Part shown: piece by piece, positions 3,181 to 62,340 of the stretch
Numbering within the stretch: position 1 is the first letter of the stretch
Layout of the letters: each line of letters opens with the position of its first letter
DNA from: Lutjanus erythropterus
Lineage: Eukaryota; Chordata; Actinopteri; Lutjaniformes; Lutjanidae
Reading direction: 5' to 3'
Assembly: GCA_020091685.1 (NCBI GenBank)
Contig: CM034607.1
Coordinates: 6,569,465-6,633,464 of the forward strand
DNA length: 64,000 nt
The notes under the pieces: model-generated
Seen by the model: only the letters and a program-made list of their open reading frames with translations
What the model was told of the DNA's origin: nothing
Database searches by the model: none
Position numbers and translations under genes: made by a program

Positions 3181-4562
3181 ATATTAAAAAAATATGGATC
3201 TTAATTTTTATTGATTGTATGCTAAGTCAATTTCCCAGCTGCATAGTGGACAAAACCTGCTGATGTTTCCCAGGAATGTTTAGTGCTACACTGGACACAT
3301 GCTGATCTGAAGAAACAATGATGACATTTATGAAGCAAGAGAATACGTGTGTGTGTGTGTGTTACATTTAAGGCAACTCTCCTCGTGGCACTGATTTTTA
3401 AAAAATGTTTGTGTCTTTCTACTGCATAGACAGCCCAGTTTTATGGAGAGACGATCCTTGTAGCAGTGAAATATCCCTTTAAGTTTACATAGTTAGAATA
3501 CAGTTGCTATTTTTTTACACATCCAGCAGTCATGGAGCAACATTAGCATTTATTTGTAGTTGTTTTCCTGGCAACCTGATGAATGAAAGTCAACTATTCA
3601 CTCTCTTCTAGCTCTGTTTTGGTCTCCACCACTGTTTGAGGGAAATATCTTGCTCTTTAGTATTCCATCAAGGCCAGTAATGAATGACTAATGAATGAAA
3701 TTAAAACTAAGTGACAAAGGATAGCTTGAATTAACTTTTGCTCAAGGCTTAAATTTAGCCTGGTCTAGTCAACGCTAACTCAACAAACTCCAATACAGGG
3801 GTCATCATGAAAAATGGCCAAAACTGCCACAATTAAGAAAGCAAGTGAGATGGCTTATTTAAAAAAAAAAGAAAAAAAATGTCCCATCTCATTCATCCTT
3901 TTCCTGTCTATCTTCAGCTGTACCATGTTACAAAAAAGGCTAAAAGACACACAAAATGTTTTTTGTTTTTGTTTTTAAAGTTATACAAGCCTACTTACTG
4001 TTTCATTTGTATTTGTTAATAAATGTCTGCATTCTATAAATGTTATATAACCATACACCTGCTGCAAGACACAAATCAGTAAGTTTTTCTTAGTGATATT
4101 TTTTTTACTAGATGTCCTTTTAATTTTCAAGCACCATCTGCTCATTAGCGTTGAAAATCAGAGACTGGACACAGAGGAGAAAAATATAAAAATTAAGAAG
4201 TTGAAGTTGGAGATAATGAAACTGGGGGAGTATATATTCAAACACAACAGGAGTTCATCTTTTGGACTTCATTCAATTTTTTGTCTTTGCAGCTTGAACA
4301 AAATAAGCAAATAAGTAACTTCAAAATAACTTTGGCAAACGTTTTTTTTCTCTAACTCTGTGCTCTCCAACGGACCCTGAACACTCCTGACATCTGTGTA
4401 GAGGAGCATGAAATGAAACTCAGCCCCAAGGAAATGTTAAGGTTTACATGTCACTAACATGAAACATGCACCAGTCCTGCCAACTCTCCCCACTGATCAA
4501 AGCATACTGGAAGTCTGTCCTGGGGGGTCATGGCCCAGGACAAGTCAGGTGGACCATATGCT
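3181..4562. other. No recognised feature; short GT repeat
   Basis: Includes a (GT)n run of about 14 bases near 3348-3361 and A/T runs at 3860-3880 and 3958-3976. An open frame at 4093-4314 is low-complexity and shows no known motif. Confidence 0.5.
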
Positions 4563-13498: not shown

Positions 13499-14313
13499 CT
13501 GTGGTGGACAAAGTACTCAACACCAGTACTTGAGTCAAAGTATAGATACTCCTGGTCAAATATTACTCAACTACAAGTGAAAGTTGCTCAGTCAAAATTT
13601 TACTTGAGTTAAAGTACTAGAGTACTTGTTTTTCAAAATACTTAAGTATTCAAAAGTACATGCTTTTATCTAATAATCTTTTATCTAATATCAATATCAA
13701 TAATAATATCATGATGCACTGACTGAGTAGAACCACTCTGCTACACAAAGTCTATAGAAACACCTATAAAAACTTCAGCATAGAAATACAATCAAAAACA
13801 AAAAGGACAGCTGTTGTCTACATGAATTATGTGGTATTTTTCACCCCGATAAAAACAATCCAACATTAAAAGCCTACCTGGAATTATTTCTCTTTTCTAA
13901 TCACAATAACATCTTGAGATTTAATTATGTCTCTCTCCTGCCGTCACCATTACCGAGTTTTGTTTGAATGACAGAGGGAGAGCTTGCTTGCTCTTGTTAC
14001 AAAATGCGCCTGGATGATGTATTGCTGCTTTTACATCAATCCCAGTTGAGAGCGGGTACTGTGATTGGTTTCCTTCTGTGAGGAACACAGCATGTGACCA
14101 ATTGCATTTTAGAAAAGAAAAACAGTAACAGCTGACTTTAAAGCTCTGCTTAGCCTAAAAGTAACAACGACCTTCTTAGAAATGTAGTGGAGTCAAAAGT
14201 ACAATATTTGTCTTTGAAGTGTAGGGGAGTGAAAGTCAGAAGTTTCCAAGAAAACAGATACTAAAAAAAAGTACAGTACTCAAGTAAATGTACTTCATTA
14301 CTGTCCACCACTG
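13499..14313 (+). mobile_element. hAT-A non-autonomous transposon, full copy
   Basis: Starts CTGTGGTGGACA and ends TGTCCACCACTG, an inverted pair with one mismatch. Flanking 8-mers CTGTTAGC (13491-13498) and CCATTAGT (14314-14321) differ only by three transitions. A sequence at 36855-36888 reads straight across with CCATTAGT, the expected pre-insertion state. The ends are packed with TACTTGAGTAAAAGTACT words. About 815 bp, no coding frame. Partial copies are at 631-822 and 2331-2805. Confidence 0.92.
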
Positions 14314-17358: not shown

Positions 17359-17670
17359 CAGAGGTGGCAAAGGTATTCTTTATTCAAGTAAAAGTACAGA
17401 TACTTGTATATTTAAAAAAAATGGTTAAAGTTCTGATTCAACTTCTTTGCTCAAGGAAAAGTGAAAAAGTCATATTAAAATAAAAAGTAGTCCTCTGAAG
17501 GACATTTATATCAGTTCTCTCTGTGCAAAACTAACTGAACCTCCTTTTCTACAGGCAAATCTCCCTCTTTGTCTGTTTGAATTTGTTACGTCTTCTCATG
17601 TATTTTTTGTTGTATGCCTTTTTTTGTCTTTTATGTTATTTTTGTCTTGTTACATCTTCTGGTTTTGTCC
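17359..17670 (+). mobile_element. hAT-B1, 5' part with start of minisatellite
   Basis: Starts CAGAGGTGGCAAAGGTATTC and follows the order seen in B3 (46497-47570): GATTCAACTTCTTTGCTCAA, AAAAAGTAGTCCTCT, CTTTTCTACAGGCAAATCTC, then CTTTTATGTTATTTTTGTCT and TTGTTACATCTTCTGG, which are units of the family's 28-bp minisatellite. The right part of the element is missing. Confidence 0.82.
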
Positions 17671-21119: not shown

Positions 21120-21330
21120 AGAAATAAAAACAGTTCCTACATGAAACTGGAGAAAGAGACATTACTGTTTAACTTATTTTTTACGACAAATTGAGTGTCA
21201 TTTAGTTCCATTATATTTGAGAGAAGACAGACAATTTCAAAACTCTGCAACTCGCCAAACTGTCCAAACAGATAAACAGATTAGAGGAAGAAAATCAGAT
21301 TTAGGGATAAATGTCTCTCTAAACACCAGC
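21120..21330 (+). repeat. Repeat H, single arm, diverged
   Basis: CAGTTCCTACATGAAACTG, GAGTGTCATTTAGTTCCATT, AGAAGACAGACAATTTCAAA, ACTCTGCAACTC and GATTTAGGGATAAA follow the order of the right arm of the foldback element at 44997-46159. The opposite arm is not present. Confidence 0.65.
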
Positions 21331-27309: not shown

Positions 27310-27905
27310 AAATGGAATTTTCTTCAACAGCACCTGAGTAGGCATTTTATCATGTTTTGTCCACTGGGAGGGCACAGTAGAAGGCATTTTACCACATTTT
27401 ATCTCATAGAACGGGATCCCAGAGGACATTTTGTCATGTAAGAAGAGCACCTTAGAGGGCACGTTATCATATTTTGTCCACGAAAAGCACATTTAAGAGG
27501 GCATATCATCATGTTTCATCCATAGGAGACATTCAGGGACCCTTTATCACATTTTGTCAACTAGAAGGGGACCCCAGGGGACATTTTGTCATGTTATATC
27601 CTCTAGAAGGGCACCTTGGAGGGTGCATTATCACATTTTGTCAAGTAGATGGGCATCCCAGAGGGCAGTCTGTCATGTTTTGGTCTCTAGAAGGACACTA
27701 GAGGGTACTTTACACTTTGTCAACTAGACGGGGATCTCGGGACATTTTGTCATATTATGTCCTCTAGAAGGGCACCTTGGAGGGTGCATTATCACATTTT
27801 GTCTAGCAGACAGGCTTCCCAGAGAGTATTCTATCATGTTTTGTCCACTGAAAAGGCACCTTAGACGGCACTTTACCACACTTTGTCCACTAGATGGGTA
27901 CTTCA
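27310..27905. repeat. 42-bp minisatellite with higher-order structure
   Basis: About 14 diverged units near the consensus TTATCACATTTTGTC + CACTAGAAGGGCACC + CCAGAGGGCACT. Two unit types alternate. A longer block (CAACTAGA-GGGG ... GGCACCTTGGAGGGTGC ... CACATTTTGTC) at 27558-27640 recurs at 27721-27803, so groups of four units were copied together. The unit is a multiple of three, which explains open frames at 27474-27701 (plus) and 27262-27492 (minus); these are not genes. Confidence 0.92.
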
Positions 27906-32511: not shown

Positions 32512-33244
32512 CGTTGATCACTTTTATGCAAACCTACTGCTGGAGATCATCAGGAGAAAAATCAGCCGTAACTCTATTTCATACTCTGTCCCTAACTAGT
32601 AAAAGGAAGGTAAATGAATGAAAGTTTTGGGAGACTGGACTATTGATCAACTATCAAGTGTTTATATTCTTTGAAACAAGCATGACCTTTACCACTCAGA
32701 ACTCATGAAGGATATTGATCATTGGGCTCTGTTACCCTTATCTCTGTAGGTACAAGATGAAAATATTGCTCATACGTTTCAATGTATACATACCAGTCCT
32801 CCAAACAAACATATTCTTCCTTCCCCAAGACATAAAGCTCATTTCTTTCATTTGGTATAAAAAGAATCCATGTTTAAGTATGTATAGCTATACTATAGAG
32901 ACCTCATCAGTAGGGACGGCTTGGATTGCCAGCTACTACTAGACAGCAAACATTGAAATTACGTCCTGCAAGATGGAAAGACGTATAATAAAACCTCATT
33001 ACCTGCTTTATAATGTATTAATAATTTTCAGAGCATATTATCAACTATAAGAGGTCACTCAGTAAAGTACAGATCCCCACCAAACAACAGATGGTGAAGC
33101 ATCTACTGCAATGTTACCACAACCAAAGGTTCTGCCAACATGACCTCCACATTTGTTGTCCCAAGCTGATGCAAGATTTCAAACCAAAGCGGCTGTTGAT
33201 CACTTGCAGCCCCTACTGGTCGGGTAAGAAGAGTGACCATTTTC
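32512..33244. other. No recognised feature
   Basis: Ordinary AT-rich sequence without credible frames. The last bases lead directly into the foldback element K. Confidence 0.45.
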
Positions 33245-33848
33245 AAAGGGGTAGTTCGCCCAAAAGTGAAAATTCAGTCATTATCTGCTCACCTTCGTGC
33301 TGATTGAAGGTCAGGTTTAGTTTCTTTTAGTCCACAAAATGCTGCTGGAGTTTCACATTAAAACAGTGTTACAGAATCTCCCAAACAATGGAAGTGAATG
33401 GTGACCAGTTTTCAAACAAAAAAAGACAACTGAAAAAAGCAAAAAATGCCCCCATGCTGCTCTTCTGATGTAATCCAAGTCTTCTACAGCCCTTACATCA
33501 TTTTCACCGTGTTCTTAGGCTAAATCTTCACTGTAGATCCTTAAGTTGGAGCCATGTGTGTGTGCACATCTAAACATCATCTAAACTGGGAGTGTGTGTG
33601 GTGTGACTGTGTGTGAGCGTGAGTGACTTGGATTATGCCAGACGAGCAGTATTGAGGCATTTTATGGTTATTGTCAGTTGTTTTTTTCCATTTGAAAGCT
33701 GGTCGCCATTCGCACATTGCATTATTTGGGAGATTCTGCAACACTGTTTTCCAGCAGTGTTTTGTGGACTAAAAAAAACTAAACCTGACCTTCAGTCGGC
33801 ATGAGGGTGAGTAGATAACTTAATTTTCATGGGTGAACTATCCCTTTA
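33245..33848. mobile_element. Foldback element K with arms of about 230 bp
   Basis: Left end AAAGGGGTAGTTCGCCCAAA and right end GGGTGAACTATCCCTTTA are inverted. The inverse match continues far inward: GAAGGTCAGGTTTAGTTTCT / ACTAAACCTGACCTTCAGTC, CAGAATCTCCCAAACAATG / CATTATTTGGGAGATTCTG, and TAATCCAAGTC / GACTTGGATTA, so arms span about 33245-33485 and 33622-33848. The end sequence is the hallmark of an abundant fish non-autonomous transposon. The central 130 bp is GT-rich. Confidence 0.9.
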
Positions 33849-34834
33849 GGCCTGGAACCAAGCCAAGCAAATATTAAATGACTCGTGACCATTTTGATTT
33901 GGAGCAAAGAAAAAAAAAACTTTGCCTGTAGTCAAGTTTTCACTGTGAAAAAATATGACCGTATCATAAAACAGCTGACATTTGATATTACAGTGGTGTT
34001 TGGTTTGACAGTCTCTCTAATCAAAAGGCCACTGGGAGCAGAGGGTATTTTAACATTAATAATGCACAGAAATTGATCTGACTTGCGTTCTAATAGTACA
34101 TCTTGTAAACAGGATTAAGTAATGTAGGAAGTGAAGTTAAAACCGACAAGGTTTCAACAGTAGTAAAAGGTCGTCTAATGGGCACCAGATCAAAATCAAT
34201 CAAGATAGAGAAAGTGGTTCCACATTGCTACAGCTATGTAAATTAATTCACAGTAAGGACAGACTGTAAGAACAGCAAAATAAAGTGTCTTAATGGCAAA
34301 AAAGTGACAGATGTCAGAAATACATTATTAGAGGTTTCAGTATGCAGATTTGTCCATAATTGTTTACCTGACTGGCCATAAAATTTGGGCTTCTATAGCT
34401 GAAAAGCAATACTGTAGGATATTCTTATTTTATTCTATCAAACTGACAAAGACCGCAGAATTTGATTTCACCCAAAAAGTGGCAGAGCATAACACAAGTG
34501 CCAGGATGAGCTGCTGTTATCTATGAAGATGAACCGATGAGTTTGAGGAAATTAAATGATATCTTGGGTAACAAGTCCCTAAACGTAGCCTAAATTGTAA
34601 TATAGTGGCATCTTTTCTTTCACACAGTTGATGTGTCAGTCCTGGAGGGTTTTATTTAGCTACACTACACTCTTTGGGTTTTGGAATCAATGCTACTGTC
34701 AATAGTTAGCTGGGCATGCTAACTTTTGCAGTTTGGGAAGTTGAGTTTTAGTGAAGGTGTTAAAAGAAACAGACAGACTATCTTGGATGCAGATCGCCAA
34801 GTTGCTAAGCTATGACTTGACAATTGGCGTAGTA
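33849..34834. other. No recognised feature
   Basis: Normal-complexity sequence. A-run at 33909. No frame or repeat recognised. Confidence 0.45.
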
Positions 34835-35156
34835 GAAAAGAAAGTAGTTCTCATAGATTCTCCTACAGAAAGAAAGTAGTTCTTATATGAAACTGCTCAC
34901 AACAAGGCCTGCTAATTATCTTGAGTGACTTTGTCATGATTTTTGGAAAAAGACATTGGTTTTCAACATGTACTTTTTGGGGTCTTTGCACACCACAAGC
35001 CAAGTGCCATTTGTCCCATTATACTGGAGAGACGGCAAATATCTGTGGAGCCAATATCTCCAAAACTTTGCAACTCATGCCAAAAAAATCTAGATGGAAA
35101 AACAGCACTATAGTAAAAAAGGTGTATTTTTGATTTAGGGGTGAACTAAGCTTTAA
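34835..35156 (+). repeat. Repeat H, single right arm
   Basis: GAAAGTAGTTCTTATATGAA + ACTGCTCACAACAAGG, AAGTGCCATTTGTCCCATTA, GGAGAGACGGCAAATATCTG, TCTAGATGGAAAAACAGCAC and TTAGGGGTGAACTAAGC match the right arm at 45850-46159 in order. There is no left arm and no 21-bp array. A short direct repeat, GAAAGTAGTTCT(C/T)AT, at 34840 and 34870 is at the truncated end. Confidence 0.85.
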
Positions 35157-35542
35157 AATACCCCAACACAGACTTAACTTTTAATAGCATAAAGTGAACA
35201 GCATTTTCATTATAGTATGAAATAAGCACAGATGAAACCTGAACAGTAACACATTAGTGTTCATAGTCAGTTAGCAGTTATACGTAAACATGTAATGTAA
35301 AGTGACCTACTAAATCCCTTCTGTGCCAGAAATATAAATGATTATATTCTCATTATTATCAACACAAAAAGATATTCTCAAAAGAGATAAAGAGGACCAA
35401 ACACAACTACTGTCTGGTCTAATGCTCATCAGTTCAGGCCATCTTATCTTATGTCCCATCATGAAGGTTTGGCACTGCAATGCCCAGGAAAAATATATCT
35501 GTAAAAATGAAAAAAAACTTAATAAAAAGTTATTTTAACCAT
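35157..35542. other. No recognised feature
   Basis: AT-rich; a 66-codon frame at 35338-35538 shows no motif. Confidence 0.45.
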
Positions 35543-40399: not shown

Positions 40400-40957
40400 A
40401 AGAGGATACTAAACATTTTTATTGTGAGTTGATAAGAAACTTCTTAACAGTTTATAGACTGCATAAGAAAGGCTTATGAGTTTCTTGTAATTCTTTATAA
40501 AAGCATTACAAACACATCTGAGTTTAACTAACTTGACTATTATGACATTATTACATCTTTACTGAGCTTTTGATGTTGCTTTATTAAGATTTCTACATAC
40601 TTTGTTATGCACTTATTAACAGTTAACTAAGCATTTTGGCTCTAATTGCTGATACATGCATAATAAATTATGCTTAAATCTTAATAAAGCGACAACAAAA
40701 GCTTAGGAAAGGGTTAAGAATTTAACAAAATTGTTTGTAATGCTGTTATAAACAAGTTTAACGCTTTTATTAACATTCTTAAGCAGGCTATGAACTGTTG
40801 GTGCTTATAAATGTCTTATTTCACAATAAAAATGCTTATTATGCTATTCGTAGTAGTTAACATTACACATTTCACATAACACATTTTAATGTTAATAAGC
40901 ATCTTGTAAAGATGTTATTTCCCATTGACTAACGCTCCTTAATATGAAGTGTTATCA
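40400..40957 (+). mobile_element. TAATATGAAGTGTTATC-ended fish element
   Basis: Ends CTCCTTAATATGAAGTGTTA + TC, the typical end (TTAATATAAAGTGTTACC) of a fish non-autonomous family. The interior is built of related 60-100 bp blocks with CTTATTAACA, TTATAAATGTCTTAT, AATTATGCTTAAATCTTAAT and GTTATAAACAAGTTTAACGC. The left end is not defined. The fragment at 920-1190 is a relative. Confidence 0.7.
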
Positions 40958-41851: not shown

Positions 41852-42524
41852 CAGAGGTGGAAAGTAACTAAGAACAAATACTTTGTTACTGTGCTGTACT
41901 TCTGCCATCTGTACTTTAATTAAGTGTAAGTAATGCATTTTTGGAGAATTATTATTTTTATTTTTGCATCATTGCTGCTGCCTTCCAAATATCAAGACTT
42001 CAACCTAAATGGATGAGACAATGAGACAGAAACCATGATTTCTTGGTGTATCCACCAGTGCAAATCATACATGACAGATGTAACAAGACAAAACACAACA
42101 TAAAAAAAATAAAATAAAAAGGAAAAAAAGATGTAACAAAATAAAAAATTACATAACAAGATAAAAAAGACACAACAAGACAAAATTGTAATCAAAAATG
42201 AAGTAACAAGAAGAAAAAGACAAAAAACATGTAACAAGATGATAATTGAGTAACAAGAAAAAAAAGGTGTGAGACAATGAGACAAAATGGCGTAAATGTT
42301 GTAACAAAACGAAACAGACTGTTCATTTTGGTGAGGAAAGGTGACCTTTAAGGCAACTTTTTACTTTTATACTTTGAGTACATTTCAGGGCCTGTACTTT
42401 TAAAAACTTTTTTTTTACTTGCTTGAGTAAAGAAGTTGAATCAGTACTTCTACTTTTATTGAAGTCTTCTTTACAGAAGTACCTGTACCTGTACTTGCAT
42501 AAAGCGTATGTGTTGTTACCTCTG
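41852..42524 (-). mobile_element. hAT-B2, minisatellite-bearing, reverse orientation
   Basis: Left end CAGAGGTGGAAAGTAACTAA, right end GTTGTTACCTCTG, an inverted pair. In reverse it follows B3: CACCAGTGC..., ATGATTTCTTGGTGTATCCA, then the minisatellite (42070-42310, units near GACAAAAATGACATAAAAG + ATGTAACAA), then GTGACCTTTAAGGCAACTTT, and CTTGAGTAAAGAAGTTGAAT + CAGTACTTCTAC. Flanking 8-mers do not match clearly. No transposase. Confidence 0.85.
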
Positions 42525-44996: not shown

Positions 44997-46159
44997 GGCT
45001 TTACAGTTAACATCAAAATCAAAATACAGATTTTTCCTGTAGTGCTATTTATCTATCAGAACTGTCTCAGTGTGAGCTGCCTAATTTTGGAGATAGTGGC
45101 TATAGAGATGTTTGCTTCATCTCCATTGTGAAGGGACTAGATGGCGCTAGTCCTGTGGTGCACAAAGTGGCCAAAAAATAAATTTGAAAAACTCAACAAC
45201 AATGTCTTTTTTCCAGAAATCATGACCTGGTTACTCAACATAATCCACAGACCTTTTTGTGAGCAGTTTCTATGGAGGAAATACTTTCTTTCTGCAGTAA
45301 AATCTACTGGAGCTACTTCAGAATCTACTTGAACCATGTCAGAATCTGACTTTGGAATCTACCAGAGCCACTTTAGAATCTACGGGAACCAATTTAGAAT
45401 CTACCAGAACTACTTTAGAATCTACTGGAACTATTTTTGAATCTATTGGAACTACATTAGAATCTACCTGAACCATTTTAGAATCTAGCTGACTTTGGAA
45501 TCTACTGGAATTACTTAAAATCTATCAGAATCCATCGGAATCTACCCAGATCATTATAGAATGTACCAGAGCTACTTCAGGATCTATCAGAACTACTTAA
45601 CAATCTTCCCAAATCACTTTAGGATCTACTGGAACCACTTTAGAATCTACTTGAACCAGTTTAGAATCTACCAGAACTACTTTACAATTTATTGGAACTA
45701 CTTTGGAATCTAACAGAACCACCATGGAATCTACTGGAACTACTTTAAAATTTCTCTGAACCACTTTAGAATCTAACGGAACCCCTTTGGGATCTACTTG
45801 AACCAATTTAGAATCTACTGGAACTACTTTAGAATCCACTGAACTACTTTCTGTCTTTCTTTCTAATAGAAAGAAAATGGTTCCTACATGAAACTGCTCC
45901 TAACAAGGTGTGTAGGTTATGTTGAGCAACAAAGTCATAAGACATTGCTGCTGAGTTTTTCAGATGCATTTTTTAACTCTTTGAGCAGCACAAGCTGAGT
46001 GCCATTTGATCCTATTTTACTGGAGAGAAGGCAGACATCTCGACACCTGATATCTCCAAAGCTCTGCAACTCACACCGTAAGAATCTAGATGGATAAACA
46101 GCACTACAGGCCAGAGGGAAAATATGCATTTTTGATTTTAGAGTAAGCTGTCCCTTTAA
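44997..46159. mobile_element. Foldback element H with 21-bp minisatellite core
   Basis: Two inverted arms of about 300 bp (44997-45300 and 45849-46159). In order from the outside the pairs are: CAAAATACAG / TGCATTTTTG-side, TGTAGTGCTATTTATC / GATAAACAGCACTACA, TTGGAGATAGTGGCTATAGA / TCTCGACACCTGATATCTCC..., GAAAAACTCAACAACAATGT / ACATTGCTGCTGAGTTTTTC, and GAGCAGTTTCTATGGAGGAA / TTCCTACATGAAACTGCTCC. The outer right end AGCTGTCCCTTTAA is the usual end of this fish family. Where other copies would join the arms, this one has about 545 bp of 21-bp repeats. Arms without the array are at 21120 and 34835. Confidence 0.88.
45300..45848. repeat. 21-bp minisatellite inside element H
   Basis: About 26 diverged units near the consensus AATCTACTGGAACTACTTTAG (plus strand). 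Variants differ mainly by CTACC/CTACT and AACCAC/AACTAC. Because 21 is a multiple of three, an 80-codon minus frame (45597-45839) reads as a 7-residue repeat, DSKVVPV-like. It starts and ends inside the array, so it is not a gene. Confidence 0.95.
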
Positions 46160-46496: not shown

Positions 46497-47570
46497 AAGA
46501 GTTGGTAAAAGTACACACAGTACAGATACTTGTTTAAAAAAAAGACTCTGGTAGAAGTAGAAGTACTGATTCAACTTCTTTACTCAAGTAAAAGTGAAAA
46601 AGTTCAGGGTCTGAAGTGTACTCAAAGTATAAAAGTAAAAAGTAGTCCTCTCTGGGACATTTCTACCAGCTGTCTCAGTGCAAAGCTCACTAAACGTCAC
46701 CTTTTCTCTACGGTCAATTCTCCCTGGCTGTCTGTTTCGTCTTGTTATCTTGTTTTTGTCTTCAAACGTCTTTTACATAGATTTTGTCTTGTTACATCTT
46801 TTTGTGTTCTTACTGTACATCTTTTACGATGTTTTATTGTCACATCTTGTTTGTCTCGTTACATCTTTTACATAGGTTTTGTCTTGTTTTGTCTTTTTTG
46901 TGTTCTTACATCTTTTATGATGTTTTATCATGTCACTTCCTTTTTTTTCTTGTTATCTTTAACATAGTTTTCATTTATTTTGTGTTGTTACGTTGTTAAC
47001 ATCATTTCTGTCTTATGTCTTTTATACTATTTTCATCTTGCTGCATCTTTTTGTCTCAAGTCTTTTTAAAATCTTTTCTGTCTTGTTACATCTTTTTTGT
47101 CTTATTACACCTTTTATGTCATTTTTATCTTGTTACCTTTTCTTGTTGTTGTTTTGTTGCATCTTTAATGTCATTTTTGTCTCTAGCCAATGTTTAAAAC
47201 TTATGTCTTTTATGTTATTTTCATCTTGTTTCACATTGTTACATGGTTTTGTGATGTTACATATCATTTTGTGTTCATCTTAAGTCTATTTGTCTATTTG
47301 AATGTTTGGTCTCATTACATCTTGTTGTTTTCTTTGTTTACACTAATGGATACACCAAAGAATCGTCTTGTCTATGAATTATTGTCCCCTCCATTTAGGT
47401 TGAAATCAGTTGCAATGATGCAAAATAAAAAAATAAAACTCCCCTGCATTAAAACTGAAGTAACATGCCTGTTATGAAAATGTAAGATGTAGAAAGTACA
47501 GATATTTTTGCACAAGTACAGATGCCTAAAAAATCTACTTAACTACAGTAACAAAGTATTTACACCTCTG
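46497..47570 (+). mobile_element. hAT-B3, full copy with expanded minisatellite
   Basis: Ends AAGAGTTGGTAAAAGTAC (canonical CAGAGGTGG-like) and GTAACAAAGTATTTACACCT + CTG form an inverted pair. Flanking 8-mers CATGCAGA (46489-46496) and CACACAGA (47571-47578) match 6 of 8, both differences being transitions. The middle 46740-47340 is a degenerate array of about 20 units near TTGTTACATC + TTTTATGTCATTTTTGTC (28 bp). The T-rich array gives several hydrophobic open frames (up to 145 codons) that are artefacts. The longest member of family B in the window. Confidence 0.9.
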
Positions 47571-61721: not shown

Positions 61722-62340
61722 ATGGGAGGTAACTATGTAAAAGTACTTTACTATACTTAAATGGATTTCTCAGGTATCTGTACTTCACTTGAATATTTGT
61801 TTTCCTGACATCTTCTTCAACAAATATCTGTACTTTCTACTCCTTACATTTTCAAAACAGGCTCATTACGTAGTTTTAAAGCAAGAGAAAAATCTAAATA
61901 ATGAGTAATGAATAATAATGAATAATGTAAAAGGACGAAAATTAATTAACAAGACATAAGACGAAAACAATGAAAAGACATGACAAGATAAAATTGACTA
62001 AAAAGATGTTTTGAGATGTAAAAAGTCAAAAATGACATAAAAGATGTAACAAGAAGAATATGATGTGAGAAGACAAAAATTACATAAAAGATGTAAACAA
62101 GACAAAAATTATGTAAAAGACGAAATGAGACAAAAATGATTTAACAAGACGTAACATAAGAAAAACGACTAAAAGAGGTAACAAGACAAAAATGACTAAA
62201 AGACTAGTTGAATATGACGTGACAAAAATTAGAAAACAAAACAAGATGAAAATGACATGACACTATGAAGAAGACATAATAGTACATGGCAAGACAAAAA
62301 TTATGTAAAAGATGTAAACAAGAAAAATTACTTCAAATAT
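61722..62340 (-). mobile_element. hAT-like element B4 with minisatellite
   Basis: Starts TGGGAGGTAACTATGTAAAA + GTACTTTACTATAC and contains GTATCTGTACTTCACTTGAA and TCTGTACTTTCTACTCCTTA, typical hAT-type end words. From about 61945 it is an array near GACAAAAATGACATAAAAG + ATGTAACAA, the same unit as in B1-B3. The left flank is not the same as B3, so B4 is a relative rather than a direct copy. The right end is not recognised. Confidence 0.75.

Follow-up and report, generated by a model that had tools for sequence, protein, structure and literature searches.

The emergence of tandem repeats inside transposons is already in print, in passages of papers on several systems (PMC6004289, PMC9659126, PMC4079207, PMC12628747). 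T2-MITEs target TTAA, carry terminal AGGRR and, as the passages that introduce them have it, are presumed to be non-autonomous Kolobok elements (PMC6004289). Element H, the foldback that is the subject of this report, resembles the Xmix T2-MITE/Xstir system of Xenopus, which is described as a non-autonomous inverted-repeat element with a TTAA target, terminal AGGRR and an amplified internal segment (PMC6004289, PMC12628747, PMC9659126); in H it is the right end that reads TTAA and AGGRR. H differs in having a 21-bp unit that most likely comes from the arm tip and an array seen at one locus, and the two are likened by description, not by sequence.

Tetris/TIR-220 of Drosophila virilis is likewise a foldback, with tandem repeats that probably began as an arm duplication, and unequal crossing-over was proposed for its changes in length (PMC4079207). 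Its repeats, however, are ~220 bp long and lie within the arms, number three versus four in two alleles, and have formed long satellite arrays, as the text on this element reports (PMC4079207). The repeats of H, in contrast, are 21 bp long, stand on one side and give no sign of recent change. Angel of zebrafish is, like H, a short inverted-repeat element of a teleost, and its single strands can self-pair in vitro; the passages on Angel do not mention a tandem array (PMC12628747). The BrickBuilt MITE of Porphyromonas gingivalis, like H, has a minisatellite inside a MITE, in this case of 23 bp; unlike H it is bacterial and has small inverted-repeat ends, and forms of it were found 19 times in the genome of one strain (PMC4596501).

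Anatomy and affinities of the foldback element

H spans ~44998-46159 of the window, the 64-kb stretch of DNA that we analysed. It is a short non-coding element with inverted repeats (length ~1.16 kb, arms ~290 bp), and a long reading frame at its array is absent. The left arm (45003..45293, plus strand) was delimited by BLAST against the reverse-complemented right arm and against an arm of the same family near 34.8 kb; its outer end is degenerate (~44998-45010). The right arm (45868..46159, minus strand) was delimited by BLAST together with its end motif, and reads TTAAAGGGACAG inward from 46159. A BLAST alignment of 287 columns between the left arm and the reverse-complemented right arm has 69.3% identity (E 1.2e-29), and a laxer scoring gave 68.9% over 299 columns (E 1.5e-38), pairing 45003-45293 with 46151-45868. 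Such figures vary with the handling of gaps: when gaps are counted, as in BLAST, arm identities are 69.3% and 71.4-72.5%; over aligned bases, in permissive global alignments of six pairs, they span 73.5-84.6%, with 81.7% between the H arms and 79.6% between the H left arm and the 34.8-kb arm. The description of this locus in an earlier note as inverted arms flanking ~26 copies of a 21-bp unit was thereby confirmed, the arms by BLAST and the array (551 bp) by TRF and wraparound alignment.

The window contains two further arms of this family, which we take to be a repeat common in spiny-rayed fish. A sister solo arm (34842..35158, minus strand), recovered by BLAST, a motif scan and a unit scan (18/21 at 34841), matched the H left arm at 72.5% over 295 columns (BLAST, E 6.8e-39); the nhmmer value for this arm comes from a model that includes it. 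A third, partial arm (21120..21310, minus strand) was found in pieces by BLAST and by nhmmer with a model built without that arm (E 4.9e-11), and its match is weaker and gapped. Both of the additional arms named in the earlier note therefore exist, but the statement that they have no such array needs amending, as the 34.8-kb copy has the arm-tip motif twice, at 34882 and 34850, 32 bp apart. We found no second array of the 21-bp unit within the 64-kb window; of the family's copies there, H alone has the array, with the 34.8-kb copy in a two-copy state.

The ends and the anatomy of H resemble those of T2/Kolobok-type MITEs. TTAA is present at the right end of H and at the one end that the 34.8-kb copy has, and not at the left end of H or at the 21.1-kb end. 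We stop short of a Kolobok assignment because terminal AGGRR occurs at only one of the four H-family ends (AGGGA, at the right end of H). An 18-bp end motif, derived from the right end of H and the 34.8-kb end and searched with at most three mismatches, had three matches in the window where 0.05 would be expected. They lie at the right end of H (a match partly built into the motif), at an end of the foldback near 33.2 kb, and at 3482. A 12-bp core of the motif, with at most two mismatches, was not enriched in the window (9 versus 7.3 expected), and the literature yielded no match to the arm sequence as text or to TTAAAGGRR with MITE. Clearer than its membership is what H works like: a MITE or foldback that has had part of itself multiplied in tandem, in the manner of Xmix/Xstir and Tetris/TIR-220. 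As in Tetris, the repeat unit in H most likely derives from the arm, judged from one sister copy, with no support from the third arm.

Several other repeats were observed in the window. The second foldback (33241-33850) has arms at 33245-33481 and 33625-33847 that are 78% identical by BLAST and 86% over aligned bases; its ends read AAAGGGG and AAAGGGA, like the right end of H, and its interior is 143 bp long, in which TRF reports no tandem array. At 3465-3482 stands an isolated copy of the end motif TTAAAGGGA. A tight inverted repeat lies at 40540-40728, with 86-bp arms that are 76% complementary and separated by 17 bp, and a tandem array of ~84-bp units, for which a 161-bp period was reported as well, at 27341-27898. 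Positions 653-820 and 13501-13668 (inverted) are 97% identical, and 657-804 and 2656-2803 are 94% identical; since the next dispersed pair in the same self-comparison stands at 87%, this element may be recently active.

The array and the likely source of its unit

The minisatellite of H (45300..45850, plus strand) consists of ~26 units of 21 bp with the consensus GAATCTACTGGAACTACTTTA, as determined by TRF and wraparound alignment. TRF reported 45349-45850 with a period of 21 and 24.2 copies, and a further 2.2 copies at 45301-45347; the wraparound alignment covered 45300-45850, that is 551 bp or 26.2 unit lengths. Laid out in rows, the array holds 27 units, 25 of them with at most two gaps, and two partial edge rows, all in a single orientation. 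The mean pairwise identity of units is 74%, and their identity to the consensus 83%, both calculated from the 25 of 29 rows with at most two gaps. TRF also gave a 63-bp higher-order period a better score than the 21-bp period (398 versus 339); we rejected it, similarity at lag 3 being as high in 1224 of 2000 permutations.

Columns 9-10 of the unit read TG in 8 of the 29 rows, CA in 8 and CG in 1, as would a methylated CpG that had decayed separately in many units; of the remaining 12 rows, 4 read TT, GG, CT and CC occur once each, and 5 are gapped. The window as a whole has a CpG observed/expected ratio of 0.28 and a TpG ratio of 1.34, as in a methylated animal genome. All four TT rows have C at column 15, which indicates that unit subtypes exist too; the TT rows look like one such subtype and not like separate decay, and count against the CpG-decay picture. 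The array itself has no evident function. Folding of its first 120 bp is on a par with that of shuffled sequence (z -0.13), and the search for RNA genes returned no Rfam matches at gathering score and no tRNA or tmRNA genes (ARAGORN, bacterial code).

The tip of the left arm and the putative founder repeat occupy 45278..45318 (plus strand), where the motif scan and the alignment with the 34.8-kb arm place the tip motif at 45278 and again at 45310, 32 bp apart. This spacing is identical to that between 34882 and 34850 in the 34.8-kb copy. The array had been thought to begin exactly at the arm boundary; it does not, as the BLAST alignment of the H left arm with the 34.8-kb arm passes that boundary, takes in the whole first unit and ends at 45318. 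Inclusion of the first unit raises the score against the 34.8-kb copy from 151 bits, when the query is the arm, to 162 bits, when it is the whole element. Compared with the 34.8-kb copy, the inner 32 bp of H outscored 3992 of 4000 random 32-mers from the window and 2000 of 2000 shuffles. A founder unit in the 21.1-kb arm as well was plausible by eye and was dropped as not significant: 596 of 4000 random 32-mers were as good as its tip against the 34.8-kb repeat, and 1728 of 4000 against that of H.

A sliding scan of the whole window with all 21 rotations of the unit, on both strands, identified the 34.8-kb tip as the best match outside the H array (18/21). When the sequence outside H was scored as 1767 non-overlapping 71-bp stretches, just one held an 18/21 match, which the sliding scan identifies as the 34.8-kb tip; a scan of this design can miss matches that span boundaries, whereas the sliding scan cannot. 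The remainder of the three arms, on both strands, matched the unit at best at 14/21, and apart from the H array and the 34.8-kb tip no match in the window exceeded 16/21, which is the chance level. As 2 of 60 simulated windows also held an 18/21 match somewhere, the argument for the unit rests on the position of the match at the arm tip. We conclude that the array unit is most likely arm-tip sequence, on the basis of one sister copy and without support from the third arm. We infer that the 34.8-kb copy represents the older, two-copy state and H the expanded state; the 34.8-kb copy could also have shrunk from a longer array.

At the right edge of the array, a last tip-like motif (45841) and a stem together mark the probable ancestral hairpin turn (45841..45876, plus strand), as indicated by the motif and by a DNA fold of 45835-45900. 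The stem (45856-45876) has 9 bp and a 3-nt loop, is formed with the right arm tip and is of low complexity; its z is -2.68, and 2 of 200 shuffles fold as well. Because this short stem lies at the array's right edge, the array seems to be seated to the left of the hairpin axis rather than on it. The earlier proposal of growth within the element, perhaps through slippage, gains support and precision from the 32-bp tandem duplication of the left arm tip, the likely seed, which H has in common with the 34.8-kb copy; its placing of that growth at the hairpin turn holds only approximately, as the stem stands at the array's right edge.

History of the array and competing explanations

We consider it probable that H is a fossil, non-autonomous, MITE-like foldback in which a duplication of the arm tip expanded to ~26 units, and then froze and decayed. 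The inner tip of the left arm would have been duplicated in tandem at a spacing of 32 bp, as found in H and in the sister copy. In H the spacing is mostly 21 after the first 32-bp step, which suggests that 11 bp of the founder were lost to give the 21-bp unit, a step from 32 to 21 bp that is read from spacing alone. Slipped-strand replication or unequal exchange between direct repeats may then have raised the number to ~26 copies, perhaps aided by a polymerase that stalled at the hairpin turn next to them. The expansion probably preceded, or soon followed, insertion of the element, after which the array would have frozen and then eroded through point mutations, in part at a CpG, and through small indels.

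Divergence estimates bear on the age of the array. The units differ by 0.32 (JC), by 0.26 without columns 9-10 and by 0.24 when column 15 is also left out; the corresponding values for the arms are 0.21 between those of H and 0.17 to 0.33 over six pairs of four arms. The array thus appears to have been decaying for about as long as the element itself, and H looks long inactive because its arms and units have diverged about equally. Adjacent units resemble each other no more than units in shuffled order do: at lag 1, 1512 of 2000 permutations were at least as high as the observed value, and over lags 1, 2, 3, 4, 6 and 9, each with 2000 permutations, this number ranged from 691 to 1711. Recent local duplication has thus left no trace. 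From its letters, H looks like an old, decayed fossil, with no sign in this one sequence of continuing change in array length.

The array might instead belong to the normal interior of an entire subfamily and have moved with the element, H being one of many array-bearing copies of differing length. We regard this as a serious contender, though somewhat short of an even chance, and it is compatible with an origin from the arm tip. The two-copy tip repeat is common to H and the 34.8-kb copy and is therefore probably older than at least one insertion; the roughly equal divergence of units and arms means that array and insertion may be of the same age; and a different family in the window has arrays of unequal length in several copies. 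This other family begins 350 bp to the right of H, and its minisatellite of TTTTGTCTTGTTACATCTTTT-like units occurs at four places. Two copies with both flanks, at 41996-42496 and 46509-47407, hold arrays of ~240 and ~600 bp (by eye); a third, at 17393-17669, has the left flank in common and a short array; the fourth array, at 61883-62327, has no recognised flanks. Since the first two copies have the same flanks and unequal arrays, the array seems to have travelled with its carrier or to have regrown in several copies, which is near what was proposed for H. Against a standard subfamily array stands the lack of a second array of the H unit anywhere in the 64-kb window. Exact matching of arm and unit patterns also gave no matches in viral_contigs and none in genome_contigs, a result that weighs little because these collections are viral and prokaryotic.

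It is quite improbable that the two arms inserted independently, as solo copies in opposite orientation on either side of an unrelated minisatellite. Such a history is in keeping with the BLAST identity between the H arms (69.3%), which is no higher than that between the left arm and the 34.8-kb arm (72.5%), and with a left end of H that has no clean TTAA. The tip-like motifs that border the array on either side (45278 and 45841), however, and the ability of the right arm tip to pair with the array's right edge argue against it, as does the identity over aligned bases, 81.7% between the H arms versus 79.6% between the left arm and the 34.8-kb arm.

We give only a slim chance to a pre-existing minisatellite caught between two arms. 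Capture of this kind has been proposed, in the passages that treat it, for the miDNA4 MITE of Xenopus (PMC12628747), but the H unit matches the arm tip of a sister copy in homologous position, and the captured array of the earlier note finds no support in a window where unit matches outside the H array and the 34.8-kb tip reach at most 16/21. A protein-coding repeat of 7 residues, which a unit length that is a multiple of 3 and one stop-free frame in the consensus unit might suggest, was rejected as having next to no probability, as indels not divisible by three break the array and the longest of 12 stop-to-stop frames (at least 30 aa, overlapping 45270-45870) is 100 aa.

A minisatellite probably derived from a transposon arm

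Because the general route is already in print, the gain from an arm-tip origin of the H array is one clean example together with a precise prediction, and not a new principle. In this case the likely founding repeat is still visible in a nearby sister copy. The inherited 32-bp tip duplication could further be a preset seed, such that a tip near the hairpin turn can expand wherever a copy lands. We hold this extension to be rather unlikely; were it true, the genome would contain a graded series from two copies (as at 34.8 kb) to tens (as in H), with constant phase and on a constant side of the axis. A genome-wide look is worthwhile, as the likely seed and its product can be compared in sister copies. 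H and its sister provide a legible intermediate stage in how a transposon arm may give rise to a minisatellite, with apparent two-copy and 26-copy states of one sequence at the same place in sister elements.
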